Of a DNA stretch of 64,000 nucleotides, positions 3,001-50,600 are shown in pieces. The notes under the pieces are model-generated. The model did not search any database. It was not told the origin of the DNA and saw nothing but the letters and a program-made list of their open reading frames with translations. The position numbers and the translations under genes were made by a program. Position 1 is the stretch's first letter. Every line of letters begins with the position of its first letter. The stretch is from Pseudoscleropodium purum (taxonomy: Eukaryota; Streptophyta; Bryopsida; Hypnales; Brachytheciaceae): contig OZ017802.1 in assembly GCA_963969395.1 (NCBI GenBank), forward strand, positions 5,644,501 to 5,708,500. Direction: 5' to 3'.

Positions 3001-5588
3001 TCTATAATAGATGGGAATCCTACATTTGCTCAAATTCTCCACTAAAAGGGTGAAAATATGAGATTTGGAGCAAAGATTTCATGAGTATTTACCAAGTGTC
3101 AACAAGTTGTCTTTCAAGCTTCTAATGAACATTGATGCCCTACACTTAGTTACAAATTTATTTGTGATTCTCTCACTATGTAGAAGTTATAGTTGATAGA
3201 TAGGGAGTAGGTAGTAGGTAGGGAGACTTGCATCAATGGCCTTTGATCCACTAAACATTGGCTCATTGTCATTATAAAGAGACACTTTATTCATGCCAAT
3301 CCTCTTTGAAGACTAGAGTTTTTATCTATCTATCTAGGGAGACTGTAAGGAAGGCCCAATTATATGAGAGGGGAGGTCAAAACGGGAAAGATACAAATGC
3401 TGGCAATTAAGTTAGATTGCTTTGAAACATTTTTCTTCACAATTTTGATGATTGTTGTATTTCTTAGTAAGTTATTGTTTGAAATTATGAGTATTTTAGG
3501 AGCTTTCATATCAATGTTTAAGGAATCAATGTAATATAGAATGTCTATGGACATCTTGTTGTGCACATGAATGTCATGAACTTTGAGTATGAATTCATTG
3601 GTAGATGAGCTAATTCATGATGGAATGTATACTTATTATATAATTGATTATGGTTAGTGTGTAAGCAAAGATTGCCTAAATATAGGTATTTCTAGATGAA
3701 GAATTTGTATGTACACTAAAGCTAGACAACTTCCAAATGATGACATGTGCACTCAATGTATTTTGGGGGTTGATTTACTGCTCAAAGGCTATATACTTTT
3801 TTTTAAAGAAAATTGAGCAAAAGATTCTCCTATTTTCAATGAATAAAAGCACTCTATTGTTACATAATCTATGGACAATATTGTTCTATTATGGATGATT
3901 ATACACAATTTTGGATGAATATGTGTGCTTTCATTTATGTAGTATTTTCTTTGAATATGCATGTCAATAGATGTAAATAACTTCACCACTATATTTGAGA
4001 TTGTTTTCTGTACTATTTAGAAAAAAATGAAGAAAAAATTGCTTGCACTAAAATATGCACTAGAGTTAAATATACAACTCCTAGATAATAACAAGTGTGT
4101 TGGAATTTGGAATTGGACTATTTGAAATAGAGGGTTATGATTGTGATGAGATGTGCACTAGCCAAGTTAAAATACTTCTAAGGATGACTAGGATTTTTTT
4201 GATTGACTTTTAGCTTTCTATTTTTATTTTTATCTTGAATTATCTAGTAAGTAAAAGTCCTACTCATAAAAATAGAAAATAGATTCTAATCATACTTAAA
4301 AGTATTCTAATTTCCAATGCACATCTTATCTAAATTTTAATCTTTCACTTCAAATTCCAATGCACTTGTCTTCATCTAAAGCTATCTTAACTCCCATGCA
4401 ATGTTTAGTGCACTTTTCATTATCAATGAGCTCTCTAACTCCCTTGCATAAATCCAAAAATTTGGGTAGTGTCATGAGTCATCCAAATGGTGTTGTCTAA
4501 CTCCAATGTACAAATTCCTTGTTTAGAGATATCTATCTCTTTTCACACTAACTCCAATTAAGTGTAATTATTTAGTGTACATTCAATCATAGATTAGTTC
4601 ATCTACCAATGAATTCAACCACCTAGTTCATGACAATACTAAAGTGTTGGCTATCACCTATTATGGTTGGAAAAATATAAATTACTGTAAGAAAAAGCAT
4701 CCATTACCAAAGAAGTGCAGTTGAACAATGTATCTATAAATGCAATCCCTAGTTCCACTAGTGTAGCCTAAGGTGACCTTTGGTACATTTTTGCCGAACA
4801 ATTATTTAAAATTGAAAGGGTTGATTTGGCAATTCATTTTTTAATACGAAATTATTTGACAAATGTTAAATATATTTTTTTAACTTTTGGCAATCCTTCA
4901 AATAATCTTAAAAGTTGGATAAGTTTTTTTCATTGTATAGGAAAGTGATATTAATGGCTTTCAATGAACTCATTACTTTTTATAGTGTCTTGCTTTGTTG
5001 TAAAGTTAGTGGAATGAATTTGGATTCTGGATTATTTAGTCAACATATTGTAGGATCAAAATGTATAGGTATCTTTTCCAACATTTTGACTTTCTTTATG
5101 TTTAATTTTTCTTGGATTTGACAATGTGGCTAATTAATTTCCAAATCCATTCAACTTCAAAAATTTTAATGATTTTTTGCCAAAGTTGACCTCATGCTAC
5201 AATACCTTGATATTATAAATATAATAGGACAATAAAATAAATAATTCTAAAATTAAATTAAAATAAAGTAAAATCCATTAGTGAAACATAATAAATAATG
5301 CAAAGGAAAAGATCATCACTTCAAAGGCTTTTGTTACAACAAACAAACCAAAACATACACACCATACATGCTTCAATACCTTGTGGATGTAAATCTTCTA
5401 GATTTCAACATCTTTTTTTAGCACGTCTGCTTGTATCTTCTTTGTTGTTAGCCTTCATCTTCATCTTTGCCTTTGCTATTACAGACATATTTTCCACCTC
5501 CTTTAATCTTTGAAACCCTCTCTCAAATCTTACTAAATCTTTGGTTGCCCCTTTATGAATTGGAATTATATAGTTTATAGTCTTGAAC
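1..5588. other. AT-rich intergenic DNA, no gene seen
   Basis: No supported gene. All open frames are short (below about 75 codons), AT-biased and lack recognisable domains or coherent splice structure. A degenerate repeat can be noticed: the stretch around 130-300 resembles that around 3880-4060, both with 'agatgtaa.taacttc' followed by a shared 'agattgtt.t' block. A 17-base T run at 1973-1989 is followed by a G-rich tract. Probably old transposon debris. Confidence 0.6.
1995..2019 (+). other. G-rich tract, potential G-quadruplex
   Basis: Four runs of three or more G (GGGG, GGGGG, GGGGG, GGG) are separated by loops of 1, 1 and 6 bases, directly after a T run. It fits the simple G3+N1-7 quadruplex rule and is compositionally odd in very AT-rich surroundings. 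No gene is adjacent. Confidence 0.4.
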
Positions 5589-28755: not shown

Positions 28756-29011
28756 TGTTACGAACCCGTTTGTAACAAGTGAACTGTTGTAACGGTTAGG
28801 ATTAGTTGGTCTCTCCCTTGTCTTTAATAACCATGAGAGGAGGGTTGTTCCTCACTTGACATTTTGCTTAATGAAGATAAGATGATTGCACCACAATGTG
28901 TAAGTTTGATTCTTCTTGTCGTTGTTGTAATTTAGTTGTAATTTAGTATTGATTTACTTTGAATGAAATCCAAGTAGAGCATTGACTTCCTTGTTGAATC
29001 AATCCGTAACA
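28756..29011 (+). repeat. Left LTR of the chromovirus
   Basis: Begins TGTTACGAACCCG and ends CCGTAACA, the canonical TG...CA. It is nearly colinear with 47349-47603. The first and last bases define the element edge. Confidence 0.9.
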
Positions 29012-29144
29012 TAATGTCAAGTCACTTAAAGTCCATGCTCTAATTTGGATTCCCAAGTTGAAGGTGCATTGATGGCATTGATTCGCGGCCATTGCAAGGA
29101 GGGATTTTGTATGATTATTTGATTCGTGAACCTAATATCCTTCG

Positions 29145-30240: not shown

Positions 30241-31392
30241 ATTTTCAGTACCCGGGCACTATACAAACTACCGCTGCCATCATCCATAAGACACCCATGT
30301 TGGAAGCAACAAGGAAGGTGGACAATATGAGGGAGCAACACCTTGAGTCGGCTCCTTGGGAGAATTTGCAATGGGGTAACATATGGTCAAATAATGTTGC
30401 AAAGATTTCGAAGGAGGTAGAAGGTGGATTAGATCCATTATATTTATGTGCCACTATTGATCCTAGTGCACATGTGATGTTGAATGCAAAGCTCAATTCT
30501 GTCCCAGGCCTCACATTAGTGGATTCGGGGGCCATGGGAATATTTATGTATTCTAGGTTTATTGAGCAATGTAATGCGGTGCTACAACAAAAGCTAGTGC
30601 CGCGTGAAGTTAGGGTATTTGATGGACGAATGATCAGGTTTTGGGCTTATAACCCATGAGGCTATGGTGGAAATTATAATTGGAAATCATCGTGAAAGAT
30701 TGGTAGCGGATGTTACGAATACAGGCAAGTATCCATGTATCTTAGGCATTCCATGGTTGATCCGCTATGGTCTGACTATTCAGTGGTCTCAACGAAGTGT
30801 GGTATTTGATTCTCCATATTGTCATGCTTTGTGCATGATGCATAGAGTGCAAGGAGAAAGAGAAAATGATGAAGCTATTGAATGTGAAGAAAATGCCGAG
30901 AAAATGGAGGAAAAAAATTTTCCAACCCTACAGGCGCAGCCTGTCGAGCGGGGCTGGGCACTAGTGCCTGGCATTCCGGTTTGCCGGGGCGGGCCTGACA
31001 CCAGCCACCATGCCTGGTAGGGCTGGCCCGCCAAGCAACAGTGGCTGGGTTGCTTGGCGGCCTATAGGGAAAGGGCCCCCTCCCAAAAAAAATATAATTT
31101 GAATGTCAAGGAGGGAAAGGAAATTTTTTTTAGTTGCTCCAAAGCATGCATTGGTGTTTGCAGCAACTTTTCGTTTTTTGGCAAAGGAAGCAAAAATTTA
31201 TGCACTCGAGGTTTCTGAAGTTGATACCCCATTATCTTCCTCCATTTTAGAAGAATATCATGATTTAAAGGCAGCTTTTAGTGAGGTGGCATCAAATGAG
31301 TTGCCAGCCCATGGTGCTTGTGATATGAAGATTGAATTTAAAGAAGGACAAGAGCCCCATAATATTGGATTGCGACCAATGTCTCCGGTGGA
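30241..31392 (+). pseudogene. Chromovirus protease and start of reverse transcriptase
   Basis: An aspartic protease signature, LVDSGA, lies at about 30513-30530. After further frame changes the N-terminal part of the reverse transcriptase runs from about 31103 to 31392, where a GAA codon is interrupted by the nested transposon. The frame resumes at 44573. Confidence 0.8.
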
Positions 31393-31422
31393 ATTAACTG
31401 ATATTTAATTAATTATGGACAA
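31393..31422 (+). repeat. Left terminal inverted repeat
   Basis: Starts ATTAACTGATATTT and contains AATTATGGACAA. It matches the inverted right end at 27 of 30 positions. Similarity continues inward through 'aatccatagtcca' if a 19-bp duplication in the right end is allowed for. Confidence 0.85.
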
Positions 31423-32032
31423 ATCCATAGTCCAGAAATATATCGGCCGTCAGCTGATATAGTCAAATGCATAGATTTGTGTGTCATAAGCAATGAACAG
31501 AAATGGACGCAACCACTAAACAAACCAAAGTACCACAACACACGGCAAGTTATTGAGTTCAGAGCCTCCAATTAGTAGTTAAATGAATAATTTCATAAGC
31601 TCCTATGCTGTGTCCAAATTTGGAACAAAGTATCGGCTGGCGCCTGATACTGCCAACCGATTCCTAACATCATTCTCTAAAGCACTTAGATCTATGAAAG
31701 TGTTTGCACTACGTAAACTATGAAAATCGACTATGGCAGCTATCTGTAAGATGAAGAGCAACGAATGCTCCTCCTTAAACCCTAAACCCTGAGTCCATCC
31801 GATCCAATGAACTGAATTGCTCGTATCAGCTGGCAGCCGATATCCCCCCCAGAAAACTCCAGAGAACAGGTCTTGAAGTGAAGAGGCAGTCGATTCGATA
31901 ATACTGGCGTTGACAATAAAGCCGTTCAAATTTGGGAATAAGATAAAGGGGACGAGATTGGAAGGTATTGAAGCCCCCCCCGATTCCACTCTGCAAGGGT
32001 ATCGGCTGGCGGCCGACACCATGTAGGGCAAA
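31423..32032 (-). other. 3' region of the minus unit, possible extra small exons
   Basis: Four palindrome copies lie here (31441, 31631, 31824, 32000). On the minus strand the copy at 32000 can sit in a short GT-AG intron (donor TTTTG|GTGATT near 32036, acceptor CCCTTGCAG near 31990). The one at 31824 may also lie in a short intron. That would extend the preceding FCP1-like reading frame, but the models are uncertain. Confidence 0.35.
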
Positions 32033-32683
32033 TCACCAAAATATCCCATTCCGGTTTGGCTTCCCGTACTTGATTGACTGTGCAACCTCATAGTGTAATT
32101 GTCCTGGTCTGATTGAGCCTTTCATGTATTCCGAGACTGACTCATGCTCGTACATGGGATAAATGAATGGAATAATATCCGTTGAAATGTTCGGAATAAT
32201 TCTACTAATATTCGGGAAATTGAGATCCCCCGTAAATGGTAGCGGAATATAGCACGTCGGATCCGGCGTCCTCCTGAGCGAAAGCGGGCACACATCGACC
32301 ATGAGCACTTGGTCCGTGAAGCATGTCATCTTGGATGGTTTCTTAGTGTGAAGTATTGAGAGCATTTTGTAGCACCACGGGAAATTCTGGCTATCTACAT
32401 AGTACTCTCTGCCATAAACAAACGCTAGGTTGTCTCTGACATGTTTTGGAAGCAAGTGCGCAAGCAGAGGCCTAAGATCCACTATTGGCATCCTAGACCA
32501 AATTCCTACGTGGAACTTTTCAAACAGTGTCATGAACATTGCAACTAGCCCTGGCCTTTTAATGACATTTCTGTGCGGGTCCGACTTGTCCACCTCGATA
32601 TTCGGGTCGAGATAACAAAGTAGTCCCGTGATGCATAGAACCACACATTTCTTGAACGACTGTGAATGGCCCACGTTGGACTC
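32033..32683 (-). pseudogene. Second FCP1-like HAD phosphatase-related segment
   Basis: From an acceptor at 32683 (TTCTGTTCAG|GAG) an open frame of about 216 codons runs to a TGA at 32033. It follows the FCP1/SCP (NLI-interacting) HAD order. Motif I-like sequence LLCYLDPNIEV is followed by KRPGLVAMF, a VGIWS motif and VLMVDVCPLS near the end. The motif I nucleophile Asp is present but the second Asp is Asn, and the motif IV acidic pair is reduced to one Asp, so phosphatase activity is doubtful. No in-frame stop breaks this segment. It may be an extra exon of the large minus gene or a separate gene; the connection upstream is unresolved. Two palindromes (33114, 32758) lie between it and the previous exon. 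Confidence 0.55.
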
Positions 32684-33134
32684 CTGAACAGAACATGAGT
32701 TAGTAGCTACAAGATTATACAACATCAACATCCACTGAAAGAAGACAAGCCAGTTGATATCGGCTGGCAGCCGATATTGCGGATTGACACACGACAACAG
32801 CCAATAGTTCATATTGAAAAACAAACAAAAGGTGCCAGATAGATTGTGCACAGATGAGTGAATGCCTGCACCTACATTATTGCAATCACTTGATTAGAAT
32901 GACCAAGACCTAATGCTGAAACTCTCAAAGGAAACATTTGAATGCTTTGAGAGTGAGTGTCCCATGCGCAAGTTTTAGGAAAAATCGGACTGAAATGCCT
33001 TCATTACAAGAAAATTGATTAATCAATACAAAAGAAAATAATGTACACAAAAGATGTAGTCTCTAGACGTCCTCCTTTATCTACAAAGAATATATACAAT
33101 CTACAGAAATATGTGTCGGCTGGCAGCCGATACA

Positions 33135-36100
33135 CTACGCCTCCTCCATTAGGACCCGTGAGCTAGGAACTCCCATGGCCTGCAGCTCCTCCAGTGAATA
33201 TGGCACCTTGAATCCCTTTTGATATGGCGGTGTCACATTCACGAACTGATTATGAAGAAGAGAGCCCGACATACAACGTGCACTCCCAACTGAAGAGTTC
33301 TTTAGGCTGAACTCTGGGACCGTGAGTCCCGAAGACAAAAACCGTTCAATGAACGGGATGAGCTTCGCCTGGAGATAAGGCAGTTTTCCACCCTTCAACG
33401 AACCCTCTGAATACATAGTAACCGTGGGTGGATGAATCGCACTATATGGCTGATTCAAAACGTTCCGGTAGGGCTCGTGATCCACGATCAATGAGTTGTT
33501 GATCGTGGCCCTATTATCGTACAAGGAGGATGAAGCGAGAATCCTTGCGAGACGCTTCAGAAAAATTGGTCGTATGGGATTCTGAGGGTCTCGATAAGCA
33601 CTCTCGTCACACTACTCCTGTCCAAAAGCCAAGTAATCGTCTCCAATATCCGGCACCATATATTTCAGGTTATGAAGACGCTGCTCAAGAGTCTTCTTGG
33701 GTAAATGCGACTAATAAATGATTTGAATGTCCTGACCCTTACAGAACCTGATGGACTCCTGAAGACCTAGTCGAGGTCTTACTTGCGACCTCTAATGCAT
33801 ACTTTTTCCTTTTAAAATGAGGGGCTCATAGAAGAGCAGAGTTCCCTGAACCTCAAGGAAAAGAAACAACTTCGGAGTCGCTACCTGAGACGGGCCAGCA
33901 CTAGACGATTTCCCTGCCCTTTCTTCTAGAGCTGGTTTGTCACACTCCTACCAACCTTCAGACGTGGTGGCGGGGAATTTCTCAGAAGTTTTGGAGTCAT
34001 CATCTACATTGCAAAACGAAATACATAGAGCATGAGAAGCAATGAACCTAGGTACATAACAAAACATTCGTGCACCGTATCGGCTGGCAGCCGACACAGT
34101 CCATAAGTACTCTAGTCTGCCGAGATGAAGGCTCCTACTGACAAGTCTACGCACAAGTCTGAGCCAGGCAGTGCTACGTATACATGAGCTATTTTAGATA
34201 CTCCACAAACATCGCGGAGCATGTCTATCGCCTACGAACCTCCAGTCTGAGCCCGCCTTTGAGATCGAGCGGGAGACATTGCTTCATTTGGGAAGTCCTG
34301 TTCCCGCGCCGCCATGCCACCGTCTTCCTCGTCACTCGGTCGTTTCCGCTTTTGCTGAACCCGAGTTGACCTCCGCGAGTCCGCCGACTCCGACTCCTTT
34401 TCAAGCGTGGCCGACTTGCTTCTTCCCTGTCGAGGTTCAAGCGGGGAAACCACCATGGGTGTCGGCTGGCAGCCGATACTAATGTCAGCTGCAGTAGCTG
34501 GGTGGCCAATTGCAGTGACTCCCACTTGAGGCTCTGTCGCAGGACTGACCACTGGAGCCTGTGGAATCTTGCGAATCTCCTCTGACGGTGGTTGAACGTG
34601 CAAGTCCACGACCATTGTGATCGATGAATTTTCCGGTCGGAGCATCCTGAGCGTCTCCGAATTTGGAGCCCGGGGGAGATTGAGAGAACGCCGCGGAGAT
34701 GAAGGACTTCGTTGCCGCTGCCTTCGAATGAGTGTCTCTTCTGGGGTGTCATCACTGTCTGAGTCAATCAGAAACGTCTGAATTTCTGGTCGCTCTTGAG
34801 ACTGACCCTGCGGCCGTCTCTGCGCCGCCGCGCCACCGGGAGTCTCCGTCAGATTGAGGGTCGAGATCGGCCGCGGTTGCTGATGTGATGCCGCAGGCGA
34901 CACTTGCCCCGATCCGCTTGCGCCCCCCCGGTCTGTCAGCGCAGGCGTCTCCGAAGAAGGTCCCAAGGAAGCTGAGGAGACAAGGTTCATTCCCCTCACA
35001 TGTTCCGTGACCTTCTGCAATCCGTCCTCCTCCCGAACAAACTCCATGACGGCCCGCCCATTCCTCTGCGAACCCATGGAGTACAAGTGAGTAACATGTT
35101 GTATCGGCTGCCAGCCGACAGGATTTCATTTCCTCTGAACAATGCAAATTTGAGGAAGGGATAAGAAAACTTACCAGAGCGATCTCCGTGATGTTCCCGC
35201 CCCCCCAGATGTTGATGATGGTGGCATCCTTGGATTTTAGGGTCGGCATCATCAGTTTCTCTAGAAGTCCATGACCAACCCCGCACATCCCGCCATTCTA
35301 GTCGACCTCGCCCTCAACGTCGACATTGAACCAGTCGGGCGCCTTATTGATCCCAGTGAAGCGCTTGAAGACCGGGAAAATACTGGACCTGTCCTCGGGC
35401 TTCGGGAAGGTCAAGGACAGAGTGACCAAAGGCATGGATTCAATCTCCGCCTTCTGAAAGCCTCCACGGGGAGATGGTTGATAGTACACCGAATGGTAGT
35501 ACCAGGAGGACAAGGACGAGTACGAGGCCGTTGCGACAGAATCTCGGAAACGCGTGTTCCCGATCAGGAGCATTAGCAGGGGGATGTACGCTTCGGTCTC
35601 TTCGATATTCGGACCGTCCACCTCAGGGATTTCAGCGGCCAGTGCTAGATCGAGCAGATCGTTCTTGTTCACTGGAAGCGGTTCTCCCATATCTGTATAC
35701 CCAAAGAGGACAATGAATTTTTTGTCCTCAGGTTCCAGCGCCATATTCCCCTTCGATTGACGGACGAAGTCGACCACCTCAGGAATACTCTCTCCGACAT
35801 AGCATTCGTATTTCAGGTCGGCGGACTTCCCACGCGTCGGAGTCAATTCGACTTTGGCATAGTTCGCCAACGTCGTGAAGAAGACCCCCGGCGCCTTGCC
35901 ATCCTTCAACTTGTCCGTCGTTGGATTCATAGGGTTCACTCACCCCTTCAACCAGTTGTTGGCGTCCGTGAACTTCATCATGTCCTTCCAGACGTTTCGG
36001 ACTACGGCCGCTGAGTACCCCTCCTTTTCAGCAAGCTCCATCCAATCCTCGTCAGTATATGGGGTCCAATTCTGGTCCTTGCAGGGAAGGGGATGCTTCT

Positions 36101-38392
36101 TCCTGGTCCACATGATCTCGTTCATGACGATTCTATCCAGCTTTTTGTCCTTGCACCAGTCGAAGAGAGTGATCTTCCCCGAGGACTTAGCCTTCGCGGT
36201 GTTCTTGATGCTCACGCGAAGTGCAACGATCTCCCGCCCTAGCTCGCACAGATCCGAATCTCGAAGCCCCAACGTTGGCGTGAGATCCGTTTTGGTGATG
36301 TGAGTGAGCGGCTTCCGATTGACGAGGAGATTCAGCACAATCCCATCATCTCCAATAAGCTCCCCGTTCTCCCACGCATCGAATACCTCCGTCCATAGCA
36401 CCCAGGTGGTCTCCTTGATGAAGATGAGGGGCAACTTGGAGGACACCTTCTCATCCATGAAGTGCGCCATCACCTTCAGCTTCGCAGCCTGGAGGAGATC
36501 CACCGCAATGTTTAGAACATGCGAGAATGGTATCGGCTGCCAGCCGATACATAATATATTAATGAAAAGGGAGAAAAAAATAAAGGTGAGTGGGAATTAC
36601 CTCAAATGCTGCAGACGGCTTTCCACCTCCACGATGCAGCTCTGGGCACCCCGCCTGCATCCACGCCGCTCTTCCCATCTCTGCGCAAGATCTGAAGGTC
36701 TCCTTTGCCACTTTCTCCACGATGTTGAGATTGAGGGCATTGGAGACTCTGACGAGTGTGTCCGGGTCTCTACTGAATACCGGAATGACCTCGAACTCCA
36801 GGAGGTCGGTTTTGGCTTCAGAGCCGTCCGGATATTGCTCGGCCAATTCTCGACAGGCCGTCACTATGTGTTGCCCACCAATGATATACTAGTGGACATT
36901 TGGCGCCTTCCACCACGGCATTGAGATGCCGTCGACAACAACAGTCTGATCCTTCCCGGGACACTCGTCCATCACGGCGTCTAGCCCTTTGTCCGTTGGC
37001 AGTGGAGCCCGCTTCAGAGGAATCCCATGGATTTCCGGCTTCTTCCTGATGGACCCGTATCCTTTGTACATGGTCTTCACCTGAATTGAGAGAAGGCTAA
37101 AATATTAAGGACCAGCTACAGATGTCGGCTGCCAACTGATACATTATATGGGAAAATAAAAACCAGTAAAGGATGGAAGTAATCGTCGAATTACCTGGCT
37201 AAGTCGGTCCTTTGCAATCTTCCGGTACTTCAACTCGTCCGGTGCAATGTGGAATTTGTCCGAGTGAATGACCCCCGGAAGACGCTGCTTTTTGTAAGGA
37301 AACGCGTGCAGGAGCCCCGTTTCCAACGCGTGGTAAATAGCGTTCACCTCGTTCTCCTTCGTCTTGGTTGTGAGATGATTTCCACGCCGGAGTGCCTCGT
37401 CGAGTGTCAGCTTCAGCGGCTTGTTGGGGTCGTCCCTGGCCTTCGCTTTTCTCTTCGGTTTGCTGGGCGACCCGGTCTCCTGCAGATCAGTTGCAGCGTC
37501 TTCAGTCACTCTTGCCGCCACTTGCTTCCTCGTAGAGGGTACCTTTTTCTTCCCCTTTTCCAACTCACGAGCGATGAACGCATTATGCTCATCGCGCTCT
37601 ATCTTCAAGCACTCCCAGCCCTGGATGAGCTCCTCTGTACTGGACGGTGTGCTTCCCTCGAACGTCATGCCCATCGACATTGACTTCTCTCCACAAACCT
37701 CCTCCGTGCACTTGTTCACCGACAACTCCACCACGAAATAATCGGCAATTCCATCCGTGCTTCCTAGTGGCATCAAGCATATCATGACGTGCACGGAATC
37801 GCCAACAGCCATGACGGACAATACACTTCCTTTGTTGGGGGTCATGTTCCCTTTCAACTTGAAGGAGCATACGATCTCCACTGTCGTGTCGGGTAACTGC
37901 CTCCAACACAGACCCCATTCTTGGATGGCCTCGATCGCTCGCCATGTTGCCCTCGGTAGAAACTCGTCTCCCAATATCCGAGAGTTTGGGATTTGCTTTC
38001 CCAGAAGGCGGGCCAAGAGAGTCGGTTTCCTACAGAACAATACAATTGAATTCTCAGTACACTCACACTATGCACCTTCACTTTGTGCATCCACTGTATC
38101 GGCTGCCAACCGATACAACCTCTCAGTCCCTAAACCCTATCGTCGGAAGACATTTCTAGAAATTCCTAAGTCAACCGTCCCGGCATCATATCGGCTGCCA
38201 GCCGACATAGCTTAAGCTCAGGCTCCTAGTGAGTGCTACAATGTATGTCGGCTGCCAGCCGATATAGCAAGTAATAGGTGCCTCAGAATCTCAATGGCTA
38301 TCCCATATGATATAGCAAATGAGAGTGTATCGGCTGGCAGCCGATACATGTAGTGAAAAGTACCTCTCAGTCGCCAAATCGGAGGACGCCAT
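33135..38392 (-). pseudogene. Large minus-strand transposon gene: ParB-like, methylase-like and FCP1-like regions
   Basis: Proposed exons: 38392-38364, 38029-37195, 37080-36601, 36488-35175, 35065-34526, 34426-34240 and 34003-33135. GT-AG junctions and phases agree, giving 1,417 codons to a TAG at 33135. The second and third exons end in a ParB/Srx-like order with GISMPWW, IIGGQH in place of the ParB GERR box, and FEVIPVFSRD. The fourth exon ends INIWGGGNITEIAL and the fifth begins RNGRAVMEF, resembling the C-terminal motif of N4/N6 DNA methyltransferases; ParB-methylase fusions are known in phages. A Ser/Pro/Arg-rich linker follows. The last exon is FCP1-like (LEVQGTLLF, FLKRLARIL, SLIVDHEPY) with motif I Asp residues replaced. 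In-frame stops occur at 36889, 35940, 35298, 33948, 33792, 33711 and 33612, without frameshifts. The domain calls are by eye and need profile searches. Confidence 0.55.
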
Positions 38393-39685
38393 CGCCAATG
38401 GACTCTGTCGCTTATCGGTTGCTGAAGATGACTTGTCGGCTGCTGAAAAAGCACGCTTGCCTCGCTCTCCTTCACTGTCGGCTGGCCAGAAATGCGTATC
38501 GGTTGCGCTCGGATGTATCGGCTGCTACTTTGCTTTGCGAAGGGATGTCAGCTGCAAGCCGAACTGAAGGAGGGAGAATGGCAGAGTGAGAGTGAGTGAG
38601 GCTGAGAGTGAGTGAGAGAGAGAGAGAGTGAGTGACAGAGAGAGAGCAGGAGACGCAAATGGCAAATGAGAGAAAATGAAAGTGGCCAGGGGTGTATACC
38701 TCCTAAACCCTCGGCTGCCAGCCGGTAGGCGTAATCATGACAAACCGAGTCCGTTCTTCCATAAATTTCATCCATCGCAGGTTTTCATCCGTTAGCATGT
38801 ACTCCACATCCAGCAAAGTACATGGAAGTTACGAACACTCATATCAGAGATGCGTATGTTTCCCAACACGATCTCCCGATGCATGGACTTGTCTCTCTTG
38901 CAATCACCACAACTTCATCCTCTTCCAGATTCAAATTTCAAGCGCCAAATTCAGTTTCAGGCTTGCTCACCTAGGATCAGATCTTGGAGGACTTCCATTT
39001 TCATTTTCATTTGCCCCACACACGCACTCAGAGCGTCCAAGAACCGTCAGGGAATTGCAGTGGCTTGTTGTAGAATGTTTATGAGGAATGCAACGTGACA
39101 GGGAATTCAGTAGACCTCAGTTCAGTGCAGCATTGAGTAGTCTTCGGGTTCAGGAAGCGCTCTTTGACAGTTGTTATTTGGCGTTTAGGCTTACGTAGGA
39201 TTTGTAGTAGGATTTGAATTGCTCCAAGCTACATTTGAATTGCAGTAGGATTCTAATTGCAGTAGTAGTTAGGAGCATTCTCGAAAATAAGTTGCCTGAC
39301 AGAGGTTCAGGATTTCCTATTCGGTTGCACATGTGTTTCCATTTCATTATTTTTACTGGTCAGAGCATCTGTGGACAGTGCCTAGATCATAGGAAGCGCA
39401 AAATCTAGCTTCGTGCATGATCCCCAAAGTTCTAGCTGTATAGTCTTGCCTCTGTGCTTTGCCGTACGGACAGTGGTATCGGCTGCCAGCCGATACCAAT
39501 TTCTATACCAGGAAGGTCGTAAAGCACCAGGTACACAGACGTATCGGCTGCGAGCCGATACCAATTTCTGTACCAGAAAGGTCGTGAAGCACCAAGTACA
39601 CAGACGTATCGGCTGCCAGCCGATAAGGTCATCATGGGTCTAACAAAGATTCCGAAATTGTGGGTTCTGACTCCGATTTCAAATC
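38393..39685. promoter_or_regulatory. Divergent promoter region of the nested transposon
   Basis: It lies between the ATG of the large minus gene (38392) and that of the transposase-like gene (39686). It contains palindrome half-sites (38410-38570), a GA-rich microsatellite at about 38585-38655, a palindrome at 38709, and a 65-bp tandem repeat carrying three palindromes at 39477-39625. A short minus-strand frame at 38775-38548 is mostly simple sequence and is not called as a gene. Leader exons may exist. Confidence 0.5.
39477..39625 (+). repeat. 65-bp tandem repeat containing the palindrome
   Basis: Palindromes at 39477, 39542 and 39607 are exactly 65 bp apart. Between them 'ccaatttctrtaccag' and 'aaggtcgtraagcacca' repeat. 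The array ends about 60 bp before the ATG of the transposase-like gene, so it may act in its promoter or leader. Confidence 0.8.
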
Positions 39686-42600
39686 ATGAGTGGATCTGAT
39701 GACTGGACATCAGGTGCGAGTCCTATTGAGGCATTCACGAAAAATGGAGGCTCCGGAAGACTGAAAATGCAGAAGGGAGTTATTGTGGCTCTTACACTGG
39801 AAGGATTATACTACTCCGAAAGGGCGGTCGTAGAAAGGGTGGTGAGCCGCGATCCCTACCTCGTGCGCGTTCATGTCCTAGACGTTCCAAATAACCTCGA
39901 TATGCCTCTTCCGTTTCCTGAGGGAGACATGGTGTTCCTGCGACACTACCCGGGAAGGTCAATCGTGTGGGAGGTAGAGAACATCTATCCCCATGCAGAG
40001 TCTGAAGGGTCTTCTTCTGCTGGTGTCGGCCGGCAGCCGATACAAGTGGTCACAGATGAAAAACCCATAGAACAATTCCTGTCACTCACTATCAATATTG
40101 ATGTCTCACTACTGTAGACTGTGGGCACGGATCTGCTGTATGCTGGTGTAGGTACAATTGTAGAATGCTCTCCGAAGGGTTACTGGGAAGGCTTTTGCGT
40201 TCCACACAGCTTCTTCCTCGTTGTGAAGCTACTGCACGTCGCCGATGATTTCCAGGATCAGAGTGCTTATTGCGAGATTCCTGAATTCATGACACTCAAA
40301 CGCTGTGTTGGATTCAAAATACTCTGGAGTGGTTATAAGGTCAGACCAATCGAGACCTCCGTCCCAATAACCAAGGTTGTCGGCTGCCAGCCGACAGGAG
40401 AACTTGCGACCCATTTCATGCAGGCTCAAGTCGATGGTAACTACGAGAGTGGTGGGAGTTCGAACGATGTACAGGTAGAATTATGTGATCCGGGAACACA
40501 GCGAGTACTTCCTACTGCATCAGATGAAGACGAGCGAGATGATAGGCTCTATTTGTCCGACGATGACAACCGCAGGTCTGCAGAGGATCACCGCGATGTT
40601 CATAGTTACAGTACCTCTGGCACTGCCGTGTCCGACACAAGTGTTGCTGACAGCATGGATCATTCAGACGCATTTAGAGCTGATACTCAAAGTGGAGATA
40701 ATGGCCATCCAGATAGAATGCAAGCTGAGCTTCCAATCCCAAATAGACCGCTCTGGAGAAATCAATACTGTGAACTTCTCAATGATGACTTCTCGGTTCT
40801 CGGAAGAGCCATGATCCAAGTCTGCCTACCAGATGAGGCCTGCGATGATGGCGTCCTGGGCAACACGGATGTCGGGGTCATGTTCGTATCGGACAATGAC
40901 GAAATGCAAATGACAACCATGCGCTGGAGGCTCACACACACAAGGTTGGAGGGTGGAAGGCTACTATCTGAAATTGTCACGCTCTGCTCAGAGGCTGCTC
41001 TACTGAATGAGTCGGACGATAACGGAATGCAGGGGGTACCGAGGAATCCATACTGCTCTGTGCGCAGAAGGGTGATTCCCAAGGATCACGAAAGCCAATC
41101 CAGGCTGCAAATGAAGACCTCAGAGATGGAGGTATGTAAGGTCAGCTCACAGAAGTGTTGTAAGCTCAGATGCTGCCAGACGTTTCCCTCGGAGGACACG
41201 AGGTCTATACGACGAAAGTTCTTCACTTGCACATTCGAGAGTAGGAGGGAGGTAGCGCATGCGGTGCAGAGTCAGCTTCATGCAGGGGTTATTCCAGGAA
41301 AAAAATTCATTACTCTTGCAAATACAGACGTCTGCGAGAACGCATGGTATATCATTCACGGGGTATCGAGGTCGGCCTATCATGTTTACAAGGCTGCGGC
41401 CGTGGGAGGATCCGTTAACGGCTCGCATGGAAATGCGGGGGCCCGACGGCCACGGCCACAAACAATCTAAGCTCAAGCAACCCTCAAAACGATCATCGAC
41501 GACAATGCCGACAAAATGCCAAACGAGTTCAGAATGGTTGGAAATAAACGTGTCGACAATCTCAAGGTCCTCCCCTCTGCAATGAATTGGGATCACATGC
41601 GCGAACAAGTCAATTATGTAAGTCCATCATCTGCCTCTTCGTCTACAGTAGAAAAGTCCTTTTATCGGCTACCAGCCGATACAATCATGTCTGGACTTTG
41701 AATGTAGAAGCCATTGATCTTTCCTTTCTATAGGCCGTCATTTGCAGTTCTGTCGGCTGCTAGCCGATACAACTCTGTAGTCTTCCATGGAAACTCATCC
41801 ATGAAGTCATGTTCTTCAGGTCAATGGAATATGCAATATGAAGCCGGTCTCGCAGTCTACTATCAGCCGCCTTCGGAATGCTCATTTCAAAAACGTAGAG
41901 GTCAAGGCCGTAGGGAGCAATTTCTCAAAATGCACAGAATGCGACTTCCTGGTAGAGTTCATTGCAAAGTATCCAAGAGGTTGTGATGAGTGGCAGGCCC
42001 TGGTCGACGACAGAGAGAGACATCTCAATTACCAGCGCGCTTGTAGAAATGTATACAGTGGATGGACCGCGCAGTCGGTGCAAAATCCATTAGAGTTCCT
42101 TTGCATTATTCATGACAAAATGGACACCACAAAGACTGCCATTCCGAGGATGCAGCGCATCACCAAGGCCACCGCAGGGCTAGGGCAAATACCAATCTCG
42201 TGTACTGGAATGCTCACACATGGACATGGAGATGGCGTGTATGCACATTACTCCACATCACTCTAGCCTGGGGATTCAAATTTCACAATTTCGTCCATTT
42301 GCAGGGTCCTTAGGGCCCTAGAACTACCACCTGTTCGGGAGTCCAAGATCCTCTTCTCGACTCCACCGCTAAACACCTTCTTCGAGGCTCTACTTCATGG
42401 GAAATCGAGATGCAACTCGTCAATTCCGCAGGCTTCGAACATGGTGATCGACGCAGCGACACCAGGACGACCTCAAGTCCCACTTCCGAGGAAACTGTTC
42501 TTGCAACTCGACAATTCAGCAAAGAACAACAAAAATCGATTCCTCATGGCTTTTTGCTCACTGCTCACTGCCAGGCGCATATTCAAGGAAGTTTCAGTGG

Positions 42601-43838
42601 GGTTCCTTATTGTCGGGCATACGCACGAGGACATTGATGCGCACTTCAGTTATCTCTCTAAACTGATCAAAAGGAAGAACACATACATACTTGCGGATCT
42701 CATGAAGGCATTCATGGATTCACAGAAGACTGTAGCCTTCATTCCGGAGTTCGTGCAAGAAGTGGCGGACTTCAAATCATACTTCAAGGGCTTCCATCAT
42801 GATGGGGTGAACAAAATCATCGGGCTCGGAGATAAACACCTCTTCAAGTTCTACGTCGTCGAGGATGGTGTGGATCGTGGATGGCCGGTCATGAGGTACA
42901 AGCTCAGGGCCACAGATTCTTTGTGGCTGCCTCCTGGTGCACCTGTCAAAATGTGGACAGCGGACGAAAATGGACAACCCAATATTCCACAGGGGGACCC
43001 TTGACCTGTGTCTTTCAAGGCACTCTGGGGGAATGTGGACATTAATACCAGAAGGTGAAATGCAGAAAGGGAAGTCGCAAGGGCTACAGAGTGCAATGAG
43101 AAACAGACATTCATCAAAAACGGAATAGCAAAGTTCATTGAGTTCTGGAAATCGGGAATGGCCAGAGATAGACGGTACGCACAGGAAATGGCAGGCTGTG
43201 TGGCTTACTGGGAAAGAATTCAATCAGAGATCAATTCGGCGCTGCCTCAAATTCCTGCATTGCTTCAAGAAGGATTATGGCCGCTCTCTGACTGGACAAG
43301 AGATCACACGTCGACTTTTGTAGACAAGGGGGTGGAGGAGAATTATTCAGTAGACACCACTCCGGAGGACGAAGGGGATCCCACTCCATATTACGGACCT
43401 GCGAAGGACAGGCCGCGCTTGAGATTCAATCCATTTAGGGATGTTCTGCTCGGAGACTTTGTTCTTTGTCGACCATGTCACAACAATCATCTGCATGTCT
43501 AGCTGGGACGGGTACTCCAATGTGTGGACATGTCTCCGGGGCCCACGTATGGTAATTTTAAAATTGAGTGGTGGACTCCGATGAAAGCCAAGAGGGAGTC
43601 AAAAGCGCTCATTGCGAGGGAGTGCTGGACCCGAAGATGGCACAAGGAACTCTGTCTTCCGCAGATGGTCCATGTCAACATTGTCTTGTATTCGCACAGA
43701 ATGCCCTCACACGCAAAGAAAGGACCTCCCACATCTCATGTCATCCCGGAGGCATCCGTTGCTGCTGCTATTGCGAATCTGGAGGCCGCGGGGGTAGCTT
43801 TGGACAGAGATGCAGACGAGGGCGGAGAGGATTACTGA
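39686..43838 (+). pseudogene. Putative DDE-type transposase of the nested transposon
   Basis: Proposed exons: 39686-39973, 40118-40339, 40424-41617 and 41820-43838. All are GT-AG and phase 0, giving 1,240 codons. Exon 3 holds a Cys-rich segment (QKCCKLRCCQTF) and IHGVSRSAY. Exon 4 has CTECDF, IIHDKMDTTKT, LQLDNSAKNNKNR and GHTHEDIDAHF, three acidic clusters in the order expected of an RNase H-fold DDE/D catalytic core. The combination recalls an uncharacterised eukaryotic family that I associate, from memory, with the DUF7869 label. The enzyme would bind the TIRs and cut the element out. In-frame stops: TAA 41468, TAG 42264, TGA 43002, TGA 43056, TAG 43500. Each can arise from a sense codon by one transition, and there is no frameshift. 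The TAG at 40115 lies at an intron acceptor and is not counted. This copy should be inactive. Confidence 0.7.
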
Positions 43839-44538
43839 CATATCGACTCGGACCTATTGGCTGCCAGCCGATACAATAGTTTAGCTCTGGAGTTGTGTCA
43901 CCATCACATTGCTAGACGGATCCGAGTCCTCGCTGCAGGTGTCGGCTGCCAGCCGATACTAAGGGCTTCGCTGCATGTCGATCGCATGGTTCTTGAACAG
44001 GATGTTTTCACTTCAGGATGATTACATGCATATCCACAATATTTACTCATTTGTGAATGTGCCTTCATATCTTTTAGGGTGTGCCTTCATATCTTATAGG
44101 TTGTGACTATAAGTCTTATGACTAGTCAGTTTTGACATTTTTAATATGTATCCGTTGGCTGCTGACAAATCACATTTATTTGAATCTCCTATGGGGACCA
44201 TGTTACAACTGTTTTATCTTCAGTGCACAGGCGATTTGCTCATATCTCTATCTTTCTTGTTCGTTGTCCTGCTTTTTGGTTTTGCGCACTTTACTGTGCT
44301 GTCTTATCGGTTGCCAACCTATATGTCAATGGGCACGGAATGGGTGCACGGTCATAGGCACCGGTTCTGCTATTGCATAGAAACCGGTCCAAAATACAAC
44401 AATCCACTTTTTTTTTGTACCCTCGATTCTTCTAAACAAGGTGTGGGTGGGCTGCCGACACTTTTTAATCATTTGAAGCATGTTCTCTACCTTTTTTAAT
44501 GTGGCTATGGACTATAAATTTGTCCATAATTTGTGCAA
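43839..44538 (+). other. 3' flank of the transposase-like gene
   Basis: Non-coding DNA between the stop codon at 43838 and the right TIR. It contains palindromes at 43855, 43940 and 44305, plus weak half-like sites near 44150 and 44448. A short direct repeat, 'gtgccttcatatctt', occurs at about 44059 and 44081. No supported ORF. Confidence 0.55.
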
Positions 44539-44568
44539 TTGTCCATAATTAGTTAAATATAGGTTAAT
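44539..44568 (-). repeat. Right terminal inverted repeat
   Basis: In inverted orientation it starts ATTAACCTATATTT. Just inside, 'TTGTCCATAATT' occurs twice 19 bp apart (about 44519-44550). The right end therefore has a tandem subterminal duplication that the left end lacks. Confidence 0.85.
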
Positions 44569-44572
44569 TGGA

Positions 44573-47348: not shown

Positions 47349-47603
47349 TGTTATGAACCCGTTCGTAACAAATGAACAATTGTAACGGTTGGATTAGTTG
47401 GTCTCTCCCTTGTCTTTAATAACCATGAGAGGAGGGTTGTTCCTCACTTGACATTTTGCTTAATGAAGATAAGATGATTGCACCACAATGTGTAAGTTTG
47501 ATTCTTCTTGTCGTTGTTGTAATTTAGTTGTAATTTAGTATTGATTTACTTTGAATGCAATTCAAGTAGAGCATTGACTTCCTTGTTGAATCGATTCATA
47601 ACA
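47349..47603 (+). repeat. Right LTR of the chromovirus
   Basis: Begins TGTTATGAACCCG and ends TCATAACA. A purine-rich tract (AGAAGGAGGGG, 47335-47345) ends three bases before it and fits a polypurine tract for plus-strand priming. The long central stretch is identical to the left LTR; differences cluster at both ends. Confidence 0.9.
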
Positions 47604-50600
47604 TGGGGCCTCTAGATGCTTGCAAGTTATCACAGCTTGCGAGCACAAGAAATAGGTTCGGTGCAACGGTCTGATGTGGCCGAGATCTTGCCACGTCATT
47701 GACCATTTTTTTTAATTTTTTAATTTTTAATTTTTAATTATTTTTAATTATTTTTATGAAAATAAATTTTGATAGCGGGCCATTCCCCTCGTTGCAGGGA
47801 ATAACTACGGGGGAACAAGCCCGAAATAAGCTTTTGGACCCCCCAAAACTCTTCTAATGCCTTTTGTCTCTTTGGGAGATAAATGAGAATTTGGATAGGA
47901 TTATATGATCTCAATTTTTAATGAAATATTTTAAAGATTGAAAAATACATTAGCTTCGTTTGGACATGACTTTTATTTCAATTGGTGCATGGAAGCAAAA
48001 GTTATGCAACACTTTGCTTTGAATAAAATTCATCAAGTGAAACAAAAAGATTTACAAAATTTGAAAATATTGAAAAAAAAGTTTGGTTTTCAAAGAAAGG
48101 AATTTTGTGTATATGGAAAGATGATATTCATTCTACTTGGAGTAGTGATGAAAAAGTGATGAAGAAATTTGTATTTGGGGAGAAATGGGAGAATCTTTTT
48201 CCAAAAAATATTTAAAAAATTTATTTTTCAACTCACTTTTCAAATAATTATTAAAAAAATGTTCCATGTGATTTAGTTTTTTACTAGAACAATTACATCA
48301 TTGGAATTAATATCTTTTAATTCCATCTAACAATTATAAACCAATTAGTTTTTTTTTAATCTTATATGTACTTTTGTTTGAATAAACTTTTGAAGGATGA
48401 AAATCAATTTCTTTTTAAATTCTAAAACTTTGAAAGCAATTTTTGAACTTAAGAAAATATTTAGGGGTTAATATGCAATCTATGTAATCTTGATTTATGA
48501 ATAGCCTTCTATCTACTAGTAGAAATATGGGTCACATAGACTAGTGAAAAGACCCTTGAGTAAAAAATTTAGGACCAACTAAAATAGATTTTGGTCTTCA
48601 AGGACATGTTCCCCAAGTCTACATGGCCCATGTTTCTACTAGTAATCTACTTATTATTACTAATTATTGGTGTTCTACCATGATGAACTTTACAAGTGAA
48701 TACCTCTCTATTACTAAAGTACACTTCAACATGCCTTTCCCTCCAACCGCTAAAACCAATTAGAGAATCACATTATGTAATTTTTTCATCCAAATTCCAA
48801 TTAGTTTTGGCTACATAGCAAATATATGATGATTACATGTACATATAGCTTAGTGACACTTGATAAGATATAAGTTTGATTCTCATGCATTTATCTTTTT
48901 TCTAATTTTAATTTTAATGAGCTCATACAAGAATTTGAAATACATGTCATAGAAGACAATGGACCAGTTGTTTCAAAGGTAGCATAACATCTTGCCAAAG
49001 CATCTCCTAACGTTAGCTGCCTCTTATGTTTCTAAATCTTAAAGCCAAAAGATTTGGTGTTATAACCTTTCAAAATGTTTTTCTTTATTGCACTTTTTTA
49101 TTTCAACAAAAAACTAGGAGCCACGTGAAAAAAAATTGCATTGAGAATGATATTTAGTATTATGTTACCTTCAAATTTATTTTCTACATTGGTGAACTTA
49201 TAATCATTCTCATTTTGTAGTTGGTGATTAGTATTTATATTGACATTTTCATTCAATTTTAAATACTACTTTAGGACTAGTTGAACTATCTTGCTACAAA
49301 TTATGTATTTTGGATGGAAATGTAGTTGACAATTGATGCTGTGGTATTGACATTTAGTGTTTGTAATAAATATTAAGAACTCTACATTTTATTATTACAA
49401 TAGTGTTGTGTGAATTACAATTCTGAAGATAAACTACTTCTCATCAACACGTGTTATGTGTGGCTCGACGACCCCTTGAACTAGCTTTGTAGATTAACTA
49501 AAGTAAATAGATTTACTATTAATAGATTGGAATTCAATTCAAAGTTCTATTTCAAGATTGAATTCAATTTTATTGTATTCTAATGTAGTTTTAATTGAAT
49601 TGAGTGTGCAATTGGGATTCAAAGTCTTAGAGTTGGGTTAGAAAGTCACCACTTCATCAATGCAATGAACACATTGCACATAACAAAAGGCTCATTTATT
49701 GTTTCATTCTATGAAGAATTGCTTCTAGATTTCCATTGGAACCACATAAAGAAGTAAGAGGTACATTAGAATCTCCAAAGATAAGAATAGTCCCTCTTGT
49801 GAAACACAATGGGAAGTTATATATTTTTACTATGACCACCTATAATGTATCTCTCTATTCTAAAAATGACATACTTTTTGCCAACATAGGAATCTTCTTT
49901 GAATAGTATTGATATCTACGTTCTTGGTAAAAATATTTATCTTCCATAGAAAATTATAGACTTTAGTAAGTACCTCTATATAGATGACACTAAATACTTT
50001 TTGAATGTAGTGTGGTTCTAACATGAAAATGAAAATAATGATTCAAATACATTGCTAAATAAATTCACAATAAACTTATGGTAAGCTTATGGCACCTAAA
50101 TCATATGATGTGTCCTGGATGTCTATGTTCTTCCATTTTTTTCCTCATTGTGCAATGCAACTATACACAAGATATATCCTACATATACCACTATTTCAAA
50201 ACTATCATCATTTAGTGTACATCTTCAAATGTTTGATGTTTGACGTTTGTACTCATCTCATCACTTAGTATTCAGGGCTCTCAAATATACGAGATCTTAA
50301 AGAAAAAATCACATGAAAAATTAATTAAAAAAATTAAAGAATAGATTTAGAGAAGCCATAATTTGATTCTAGGGGTAGGTAAGTTTTGTCCTTTCATCCT
50401 CATGTATTTGTGGTGACCAATTTTTTACATTTGACATGTAAAAAGAAGATTGAAATACTTCAAATTGGTTTCATAGTTTTCACACCCTCATGATCAAACA
50501 TTCCAATCTTTCAATTCATAAGTGATATTGTTAACTTTTCCTTTCCCATTCAACATTTAATGTGTTTGGTTTCAATCTGTATGGTTACAATTTAAAAAAT

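Follow-up and report, generated by a model that had tools for sequence, protein, structure and literature searches.

The question raised by this locus is why one 19-bp palindrome should be repeated along a large DNA transposon of the moss Pseudoscleropodium purum, in every modelled intron but so seldom in exons. The transposon occupies positions 31396-44565 (13,170 bp) of the 64,000-nucleotide stretch of contig OZ017802.1 that we analysed, referred to below as the window, and it carries two modelled genes with divergent starts: a plus-strand gene with a DUF7869 domain and a large minus-strand gene. We consider it probable that the palindromes are a family-specific DNA address, recognised in duplex DNA by a transposon-encoded dimeric protein, which counters silencing and/or builds the transposition complex. 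A function tied to introns is unlikely.

Searching the window for TRTCGGCTGSCAGCCGAYA with up to three mismatches returned 26 matches, all at 31441-44323 and none elsewhere in the 64 kb, against a mean of 0.01 (maximum 1) in 100 dinucleotide shuffles; the 26 palindromes that a first-pass annotation had counted between the terminal inverted repeats (TIRs) were thus all recovered. The exact 15-bp core is present in 13 of the 26. Each palindrome consists of two 9-bp half-sites (TRTCGGCTG) placed head to head around a single S, and contains two CpG sites as well as CHG sites. In the host assembly (313 Mb), the exact core occurs 1,083 times and the pattern read backwards not once. Judged on the first 50 of the 1,083 places listed, 48 fall within six regions which each have long matches to the transposon family of the window (two of the six copies are interrupted). 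The other two, C1:277793 and C1:2447845, lie outside family copies; they are duplicated pieces of exon 1 of the DUF7869 gene with the site at 40024, and are captured fragments. Confinement to the element, as first claimed, therefore stands for the window and fails in the genome at two of the 50 listed places; confinement to the family is borne out at the other 48, and confinement to introns is not, 14 of the 26 sites lying outside the modelled genes. The duplicated pieces (L028 1888-2088 and L029 1956-2082) adjoin a gag-like frame that we read as copia-type. The 26 sites, all found by pattern search, are as follows, with any further basis in brackets.

31441..31459, + strand, palindrome 1, three mismatches, left end
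31631..31649, + strand, palindrome 2, three mismatches, left end
31824..31842, + strand, palindrome 3, left end
32000..32018, + strand, palindrome 4, left end
32758..32776, + strand, palindrome 5, left 3 kb (unsupported gene model)
33114..33132, + strand, palindrome 6, directly beyond the stop of a minus-strand open frame (frames)
34078..34096, + strand, palindrome 7, left of minus gene exon 5
34460..34478, + strand, palindrome 8, probably exonic, minus gene exon 5, IGCQPT (gene model)
35102..35120, + strand, palindrome 9, minus gene intron 4 (gene model)
36531..36549, + strand, palindrome 10, minus gene intron 3 (gene model)
37123..37141, + strand, palindrome 11, minus gene intron 2 (gene model)
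38097..38115, + strand, palindrome 12, minus gene intron 1 (gene model)
38189..38207, + strand, palindrome 13, minus gene intron 1 (gene model)
38246..38264, + strand, palindrome 14, minus gene intron 1 (gene model)
38328..38346, + strand, palindrome 15, minus gene intron 1 (gene model)
38709..38727, + strand, palindrome 16, spacer, identical three mismatches in five of five copies (copies)
39477..39495, + strand, palindrome 17, spacer, 65-bp tandem unit (repeat search)
39542..39560, + strand, palindrome 18, spacer, 65-bp tandem unit (repeat search)
39607..39625, + strand, palindrome 19, spacer, 65 bp past palindrome 18 (repeat search)
40024..40042, + strand, palindrome 20, exonic, DUF7869 gene exon 1, VGRQPI (homologues)
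40378..40396, + strand, palindrome 21, probably exonic, DUF7869 gene exon 1, VGCQPT (frames)
41663..41681, + strand, palindrome 22, DUF7869 gene intron (gene model)
41751..41769, + strand, palindrome 23, DUF7869 gene intron (gene model)
43855..43873, + strand, palindrome 24, right end, directly beyond the DUF7869 gene
43940..43958, + strand, palindrome 25, right end
44305..44323, + strand, palindrome 26, three mismatches, right end

The transposon is bounded by imperfect TIRs that start with AACTGATATTTAA and by a 4-bp target site duplication (TSD), AATT. It is inserted inside a retroelement whose long terminal repeat copies lie at 28799-29012 and 47391-47604, and which, judged from its frames, we read as Ty3/gypsy. 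Four further full copies were found on contig C1 (13.1-13.3 kb, matching pieces 93.6-96.5% identical to the window copy); their TSDs are CTAC, ATTT, GTAA and TAAG, and a 4-bp TSD is thus seen in all five full copies.

31392..31395, no strand, left TSD, AATT (sequence; other copies)
31396..31427, + strand, left TIR (repeat search; other copies)
31396..44565, no strand, whole DNA transposon, nested in the retroelement (repeats, copies compared)
44534..44565, - strand, right TIR (repeat search; other copies)
44566..44569, no strand, right TSD, AATT (sequence; other copies)

The position of the palindromes relative to exons depends on the gene models. The plus gene carries DUF7869 (PF25273) with an E value of 4.8e-36, above the Pfam cut-off; the stretches QLDN and HTHEDID are nearly invariant among 46 homologues, and HDxMD is invariant among seven. 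Homologues align without a break to its 3' part (P0001 over 41871-43820, P0009 from 41820) and to its 5' part (P0121, P0123, P0124, P0128, P0132 and P0138, from 39.65-39.8 kb to at least 41620), from which we derive two exons and one GT-AG intron at 41618-41819. The large minus gene is modelled with five exons and four GT-AG introns, and 1,163 residues are predicted. Its exon 4 is covered by P0187, P0188, P0189, P0191 and P0192, while P0195 matches the last part of exon 4 and the first part of exon 5. Both flanks of minus intron 4 and of the plus intron are supported by homologues, as is one flank of minus intron 3; minus exons 1-3, introns 1-2 and the remainder of exon 5 are based on open frames and splice sites. 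The left 3 kb of the transposon contains minus-strand open frames with unsupported gene models. An open frame at 32033-32893 has a NIF-like phosphatase match (E 3.3e-4, 20.8 bits) just under the Pfam cut-off of 21.8.

39686..41617, + strand, DUF7869 gene exon 1 (homologues, gene model)
41618..41819, + strand, DUF7869 gene sole modelled intron, GT-AG, two palindromes (homologues, gene model)
41820..43841, + strand, DUF7869 gene exon 2, transposase-like core, no palindromes (PF25273, homologues)
38364..38392, - strand, minus gene exon 1 (open frame and splice sites only)
38030..38363, - strand, minus gene intron 1, four palindromes (open frame and splice sites only)
37195..38029, - strand, minus gene exon 2 (open frame and splice sites only)
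37081..37194, - strand, minus gene intron 2, one palindrome (open frame and splice sites only)
36601..37080, - strand, minus gene exon 3 (open frame and splice sites only)
36489..36600, - strand, minus gene intron 3, one palindrome (homologue for one flank, gene model)
35175..36488, - strand, minus gene exon 4, no palindromes (homologues, gene model)
35066..35174, - strand, minus gene intron 4, one palindrome (homologues, gene model)
34232..35065, - strand, minus gene exon 5, one palindrome within (gene model; homologue for first part only)

By these models nine palindromes are intronic, three read as exonic, and 14 lie elsewhere, in the ends, in the spacer between the divergent starts and in the left 3 kb. 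All five modelled introns are GT-AG and contain the palindrome, minus introns 1-4 having 4, 1, 1 and 1 and the plus intron 2. The first-pass statement that every intron carries one to four copies therefore holds, although the introns number four and one rather than six and three. Since the exons of the two genes make up 7,446 of the 13,170 bp, 14.7 exonic palindromes would be expected against the three observed (P ~2.5e-6). Inside the two genes only, three of 12 palindromes are exonic against 10.7 expected (P ~2.5e-7), and with the unsupported left-hand frames included the count is three of 26 against 17.0. Per kb, introns hold 10.3 palindromes, exons 0.4 and the remaining sequence 2.9. There is a genuine, if incomplete, bias against exons, which we read as poor tolerance of the palindrome by coding sequence.

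The earlier claim that exons contain none could not be maintained. At 34460, 40024 and 40378 the palindrome is translated in the same one of its frames, which gives (I/V)G(C/R)QP(T/I). At 40024, 29 of 66 aligned homologues have residues in the six columns and 16 of these 29 match the strict form [IV]G.[PQ]P[IT]; other homologues have near forms such as IGCRPT, and KPI..FL downstream stays aligned. No homologue among the 66 has all six residues aligned at 40378, although VGCPPT stands close by in P0121. For 34460, P0195 shows SVGGQPTR with a similar tail, read by eye with no alignment. Frame-neutral GT-AG stretches of up to 130 nt enclosing the whole palindrome were enumerated at all three sites, giving four at 40024 (24, 33, 48 and 129 nt), 19 at 40378 (the shortest 48 nt) and nine at 34460 (the shortest 93 nt). 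An intron at 40024 was rejected, as the 129-nt stretch would delete residues common to the homologues and the others are too short; lengths of 24-48 nt are below those of usual plant introns. At 34460 and 40378 the enumerated stretches make introns possible. On the homologue alignments and frames, we therefore hold 40024 to be firmly exonic and 34460 and 40378 probably so.

The hexapeptide [IV]G.[PQ]P[IT] is present in 41 of the 66 exon-1 homologues (51 occurrences; none in reversed sequences), in one of 120 exon-2 homologues and in three of nine minus-exon-4 homologues; two of the last three we read as falling in intron-derived tails. The tails of P0187, P0188 and P0195, taken for intron, show YRLPADI, IGRQPI and SAASRY, which are the palindrome in other frames. 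The homologue hexapeptides appear to match what such palindromes encode. In the nine compared proteins that have the hexapeptide twice, the two are 119 (P0121) or 124 residues apart; in the window the distance is 118. The hexapeptides of P0121, at 164-169 and 283-288, fall within stretches of low predicted confidence (154-179 and 266-356), which are probably linkers. A search of the host genome for palindromes with a GG/CC centre, prompted by IGGPPI peptides, gave no matches, and neither did its control.

In addition to the complete palindromes, the transposon contains a cluster of solo half-sites.

38413..38524, + strand, five solo half-sites TRTCGGYTG in one orientation, starts 38413, 38434, 38476, 38497 and 38516 (motif search; other copies)

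The cluster lies directly upstream of the first ATG of the minus gene, with steps of 21, 42, 21 and 19 bp. The transposon has no further exact solo half-site, and the rest of the window lacks these 9-mers, with one 8-mer at 11781. The cluster recurs in all four of the other full copies; in one it has lost 21 bp, and in several it shows single changes. Spacing close to two helical turns per step suggests that proteins sit side by side on the DNA, and the location ahead of the large minus gene suggests self-regulation.

A distant relative has a palindrome of its own. Prokaryote genome contigs were scanned with 46 aligned transposase homologues, giving three loci of 46 stretches, which we take for stray eukaryotic contigs in bins. 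One of them, L060 (CADCWO010000071.1; 34% identity), has a single intronless open frame of 944 residues. In it TTTAGCTCGASTCGAGCTAAA occurs once without mismatch, at 114, and twice with a single mismatch, at 34 and 489 (none in shuffles). This palindrome shares the plan of arm, S and arm with that of the window and differs from it in sequence. At up to seven mismatches all 12 sites are non-coding; at eight there are 15 sites, one of them coding. Half-sites with up to two mismatches number 15 in non-coding sequence against 1.5 in shuffles, and none in coding sequence against 2.4, the half-site having been derived from the L060 contig itself. At another of the three loci, L062, a tandem 89-bp unit with two palindromes (GTTCGTTCGCGAACGCAC and CTTGTGTTCGTTTCCGAACACAAG) is seen at 4989-5146, near the contig end and a DUF7869 relative. 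Among 79 stretches of viral contigs there were no relatives.

The distribution over introns, exonic-reading sequence and other parts indicates a signal that is not tied to splicing, and its family specificity suggests that the transposon encodes the binding protein. The best explanation for a site that is long, near-perfect and strand-symmetric, that is found in varied locations and that has given way to another palindrome in a relative is the address of a dimeric protein. From what we observed, namely the array, its positions, the exon bias, the conservation in copies, the homologue hexapeptides and the relative's palindrome, we infer protein binding, its encoding by the transposon, and the role. 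Two head-to-head half-sites around the S would be bound by a dimer of an element-encoded protein, and the transposon would keep such sites along its full length in places under little coding constraint, namely its ends, spacer and introns and at least one protein linker. Element-wide binding would most likely mark the transposon for its own protein, and such marking could protect it from silencing by the host, as VANC does for VANDAL elements, and/or assemble a transposition complex, as TNPA does on CACTA. Of the meanings first proposed for the array, protein binding thus appears to fit best, given the 14 sites in ends, spacer and left 3 kb, at least one exonic site, half-sites about 21 bp apart and the relative's own palindrome; a splicing signal or intron scar drew no support from the exonic 40024, the non-intron sites or the intronless L060.

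The alternative that survives best, though we think it rather less likely, is a TNPA-like role only, in which the element protein at the sites pairs the ends and cuts, with no anti-silencing. In CACTA elements, subterminal motifs particular to each family are thought to be binding sites for an element protein (PMC2613891), and palindromes lie near both ends of this transposon. The central base on the plus strand is also asymmetric, being G in all seven S-centred sites left of 34.5 kb and in two of the 18 to the right, as if the halves faced each other (31631-44323); one further palindrome has T at its centre. Local duplication could have produced this pattern, however, and the palindromes occupy the whole 13 kb, with their highest density in internal introns.

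The copies bear on the improbable view that the palindrome is a neutral repeat, spread by slippage and local duplication without binding and selected against in coding sequence. Tandem units of 65 and 149 bp do carry it and its number does vary: in three of five copies intron 1 has one more palindrome at a distance of 149 bp, and the 65-bp repeat has three palindromes in the window copy against two in the four others. Outside the tandem units, however, the repeat search gave few longer shared stretches around the sites. The helical spacing of the solo half-sites, the unlike palindrome of the same plan in L060 and the retention of the 40024 position by homologues also speak against neutrality.

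Slightly less probable still is an RNA signal, the palindrome folding in the pre-mRNA and aiding splicing or export. Its presence in all five modelled introns would suit such a role, direct reading allows 8 bp to pair around a 3-base loop, and the link to introns would be tighter should short introns enclose 34460 and 40378. It is difficult to reconcile with the 14 palindromes outside the two modelled genes, with the exonic 40024, with L060, which has its palindromes although its gene is intronless, and with solo half-sites, unable to form a hairpin, clustered upstream of the minus gene.

We also give little credence to a host-side target, by which a host methyltransferase or silencing factor would read the palindrome. 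Of the 26 palindromes, 24 align without gaps in the five copies, the remaining two belonging to tandem units. They show 76 changes from the site majority in 2,318 bases, a figure that excludes gapped rows (39477 and 39542 in four copies; the context count, with other gap handling, is 78). C to T or G to A accounts for 66 of the 76, compared with 1,054 of 1,380 changes outside palindromes, and at C and G outside CpG the rate of change is somewhat higher within palindromes (49 of 935) than outside them (777 of 25,224), as a host target would have it. At CpG letters, however, palindromes show no such excess (23 of 510, against 412 of 6,586 outside them), and a harmful site would hardly be kept at 26 places or swapped for another palindrome in a relative. 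To judge from the C to T changes, methylation looks like a fate of the palindromes.

Finally, the idea that the introns arose from inserted palindromic pieces, as introners do, is very improbable: each modelled intron has at least one palindrome and introners with inverted repeats are known, but in the available text of PMC7789003 those repeats join the two ends of one intron, with direct repeats overlapping the splice sites, whereas here the palindromes take varying intron positions, 17 of 26 lie outside modelled introns, and the 40024 position is retained in homologues without an intron.

Several points weigh against a self-encoded address. Only one exonic palindrome is firm, and conservation of the hexapeptide could come partly from protein constraint; the L060 half-site counts draw on that contig's own motif. 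All five full copies examined have stops (in the window copy three internal ones in the minus gene and six in the plus gene), and the present arrays may therefore serve no purpose. No DNA-binding domain was found: Pfam gave nothing for the minus-gene pieces apart from one chance match, searches of PDB sequences returned only unrelated matches (E ~1) for minus exon 3 and nothing for exon-4 homologues, and the structure model of the exon-4 homologues was unusable (mean pLDDT 41.7). No convincing recurring palindrome was found in L061, the third of the prokaryote-contig loci, or in 30 DUF7869 loci of the host genome (3.4-3.6 kb each), and an array is thus not established for DUF7869 elements in general; what this test picked out in many of these loci were weak groups, AT-rich for the most part and of a kind expected by chance.

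Regarding the stops, codon 144 of the plus gene is a stop in the window copy and CAG in the four other full copies, and we attribute the stops in exon 1 to decay. A ParB-like or methyltransferase-like minus gene was considered and set aside, Pfam (E up to 10) giving nothing for exon 3 and for four of five homologue queries; for the fifth, P0191, it gave an A2M match (E 0.095) that is due to chance. By eye, GGQHxVTACRELA in minus exon 3 (36601-37080, - strand) recalls ParB/sulfiredoxin-like domains, unsupported by Pfam and PDB. For an exon-1 homologue model (mean pLDDT 52.4), the top Foldseek matches were tandem Tudor (UHRF1), SAWADEE and agenet structures (best E 0.034); DUF7869 exon 1 (39686-40400) may have Tudor-like domains, at a level below Foldseek significance.

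A broader proposal, which we put forward only tentatively and think more doubtful than the address itself, is that large DUF7869 transposons form a class with a palindromic address that changes by family, read by an element-encoded dimeric protein and written through coding linkers, as a second, independently evolved counterpart of VANDAL/VANC. A PF25273 search of the host genome gave at least 181 matches (150 of 885 candidates scored), many without stops, and there are several apparently young DUF7869 families in this genome. In other DUF7869 loci, clustered GCGGAC...GTCCGC-type palindromes are seen in L040 at 108-167 and a similar cluster in L033 at 1048-1095, too few to judge. The name DUF7869 did not appear in the literature searched, and no similar palindrome array was found in titles and abstract openings of literature on palindromes and transposons, which is no proof that it is unpublished. 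If the transposon's own protein does read the address, transposons that are neither Mutator nor CACTA have arrived at the same solution, and their palindromic site is of a length that makes it nearly unique in a genome. Reader proteins could then be matched to their sites by using families with different palindromes as natural experiments, and the C to T decay of dead copies allows one to ask whether loss of the address accompanies silencing.

Comparison with known systems places the transposon apart from introners, CACTA elements and VANDALs. It shares inverted repeats within introns with the introners of Amoebophrya and others (PMC7789003, available text), but here the palindrome neither joins intron ends nor is restricted to introns. 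Like CACTA elements (En/Spm, Tgm), it is large and has a family-specific repeated motif, one thought in those elements to be bound by a TNPA-like element protein. According to the accessible text of PMC2613891, Tgm has a 3-bp TSD, CACTA TIRs and subterminal motifs, unlike the 4-bp TSD, the different TIR start and the element-wide motifs seen here.

Bacterial ParB-parS systems have several palindromic sites across kilobases, and the array resembles them in its multiple, widely spread palindromic sites; ParB homology, however, was not found for the minus-gene pieces tested (Pfam, PDB).

By analogy, the closest precedent is VANC21 of the VANDAL21 transposons of Arabidopsis. VANDALs are Mutator-like, with TSDs longer than 4 bp; the DUF7869 gene and 4-bp TSD here therefore exclude a Mutator-like VANDAL-type element, and since gene, TIR and TSD all differ, the transposon belongs to neither VANDAL nor CACTA. 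Pfam gave no VANC homologue, and no search by name was made. In the available part of PMC5735166, the VANC21 motif YAGTATTAY is 9 bp long and densely arrayed in a single orientation, VANC21 is found in introns and in intergenic and terminal non-coding parts of VANDAL21, and related proteins have other motifs; VANC targets are described as evolving by tandem repeats (PMC5735166; PMC10398659, likewise in part). The present array differs in being a sparse 19-bp palindrome with at least one exonic copy. As far as those texts go, the two systems have in common a family-specific motif that is rare elsewhere (here judged on the first 50 genome places), a bias towards non-coding sequence, and a number of sites that shifts by tandem units.

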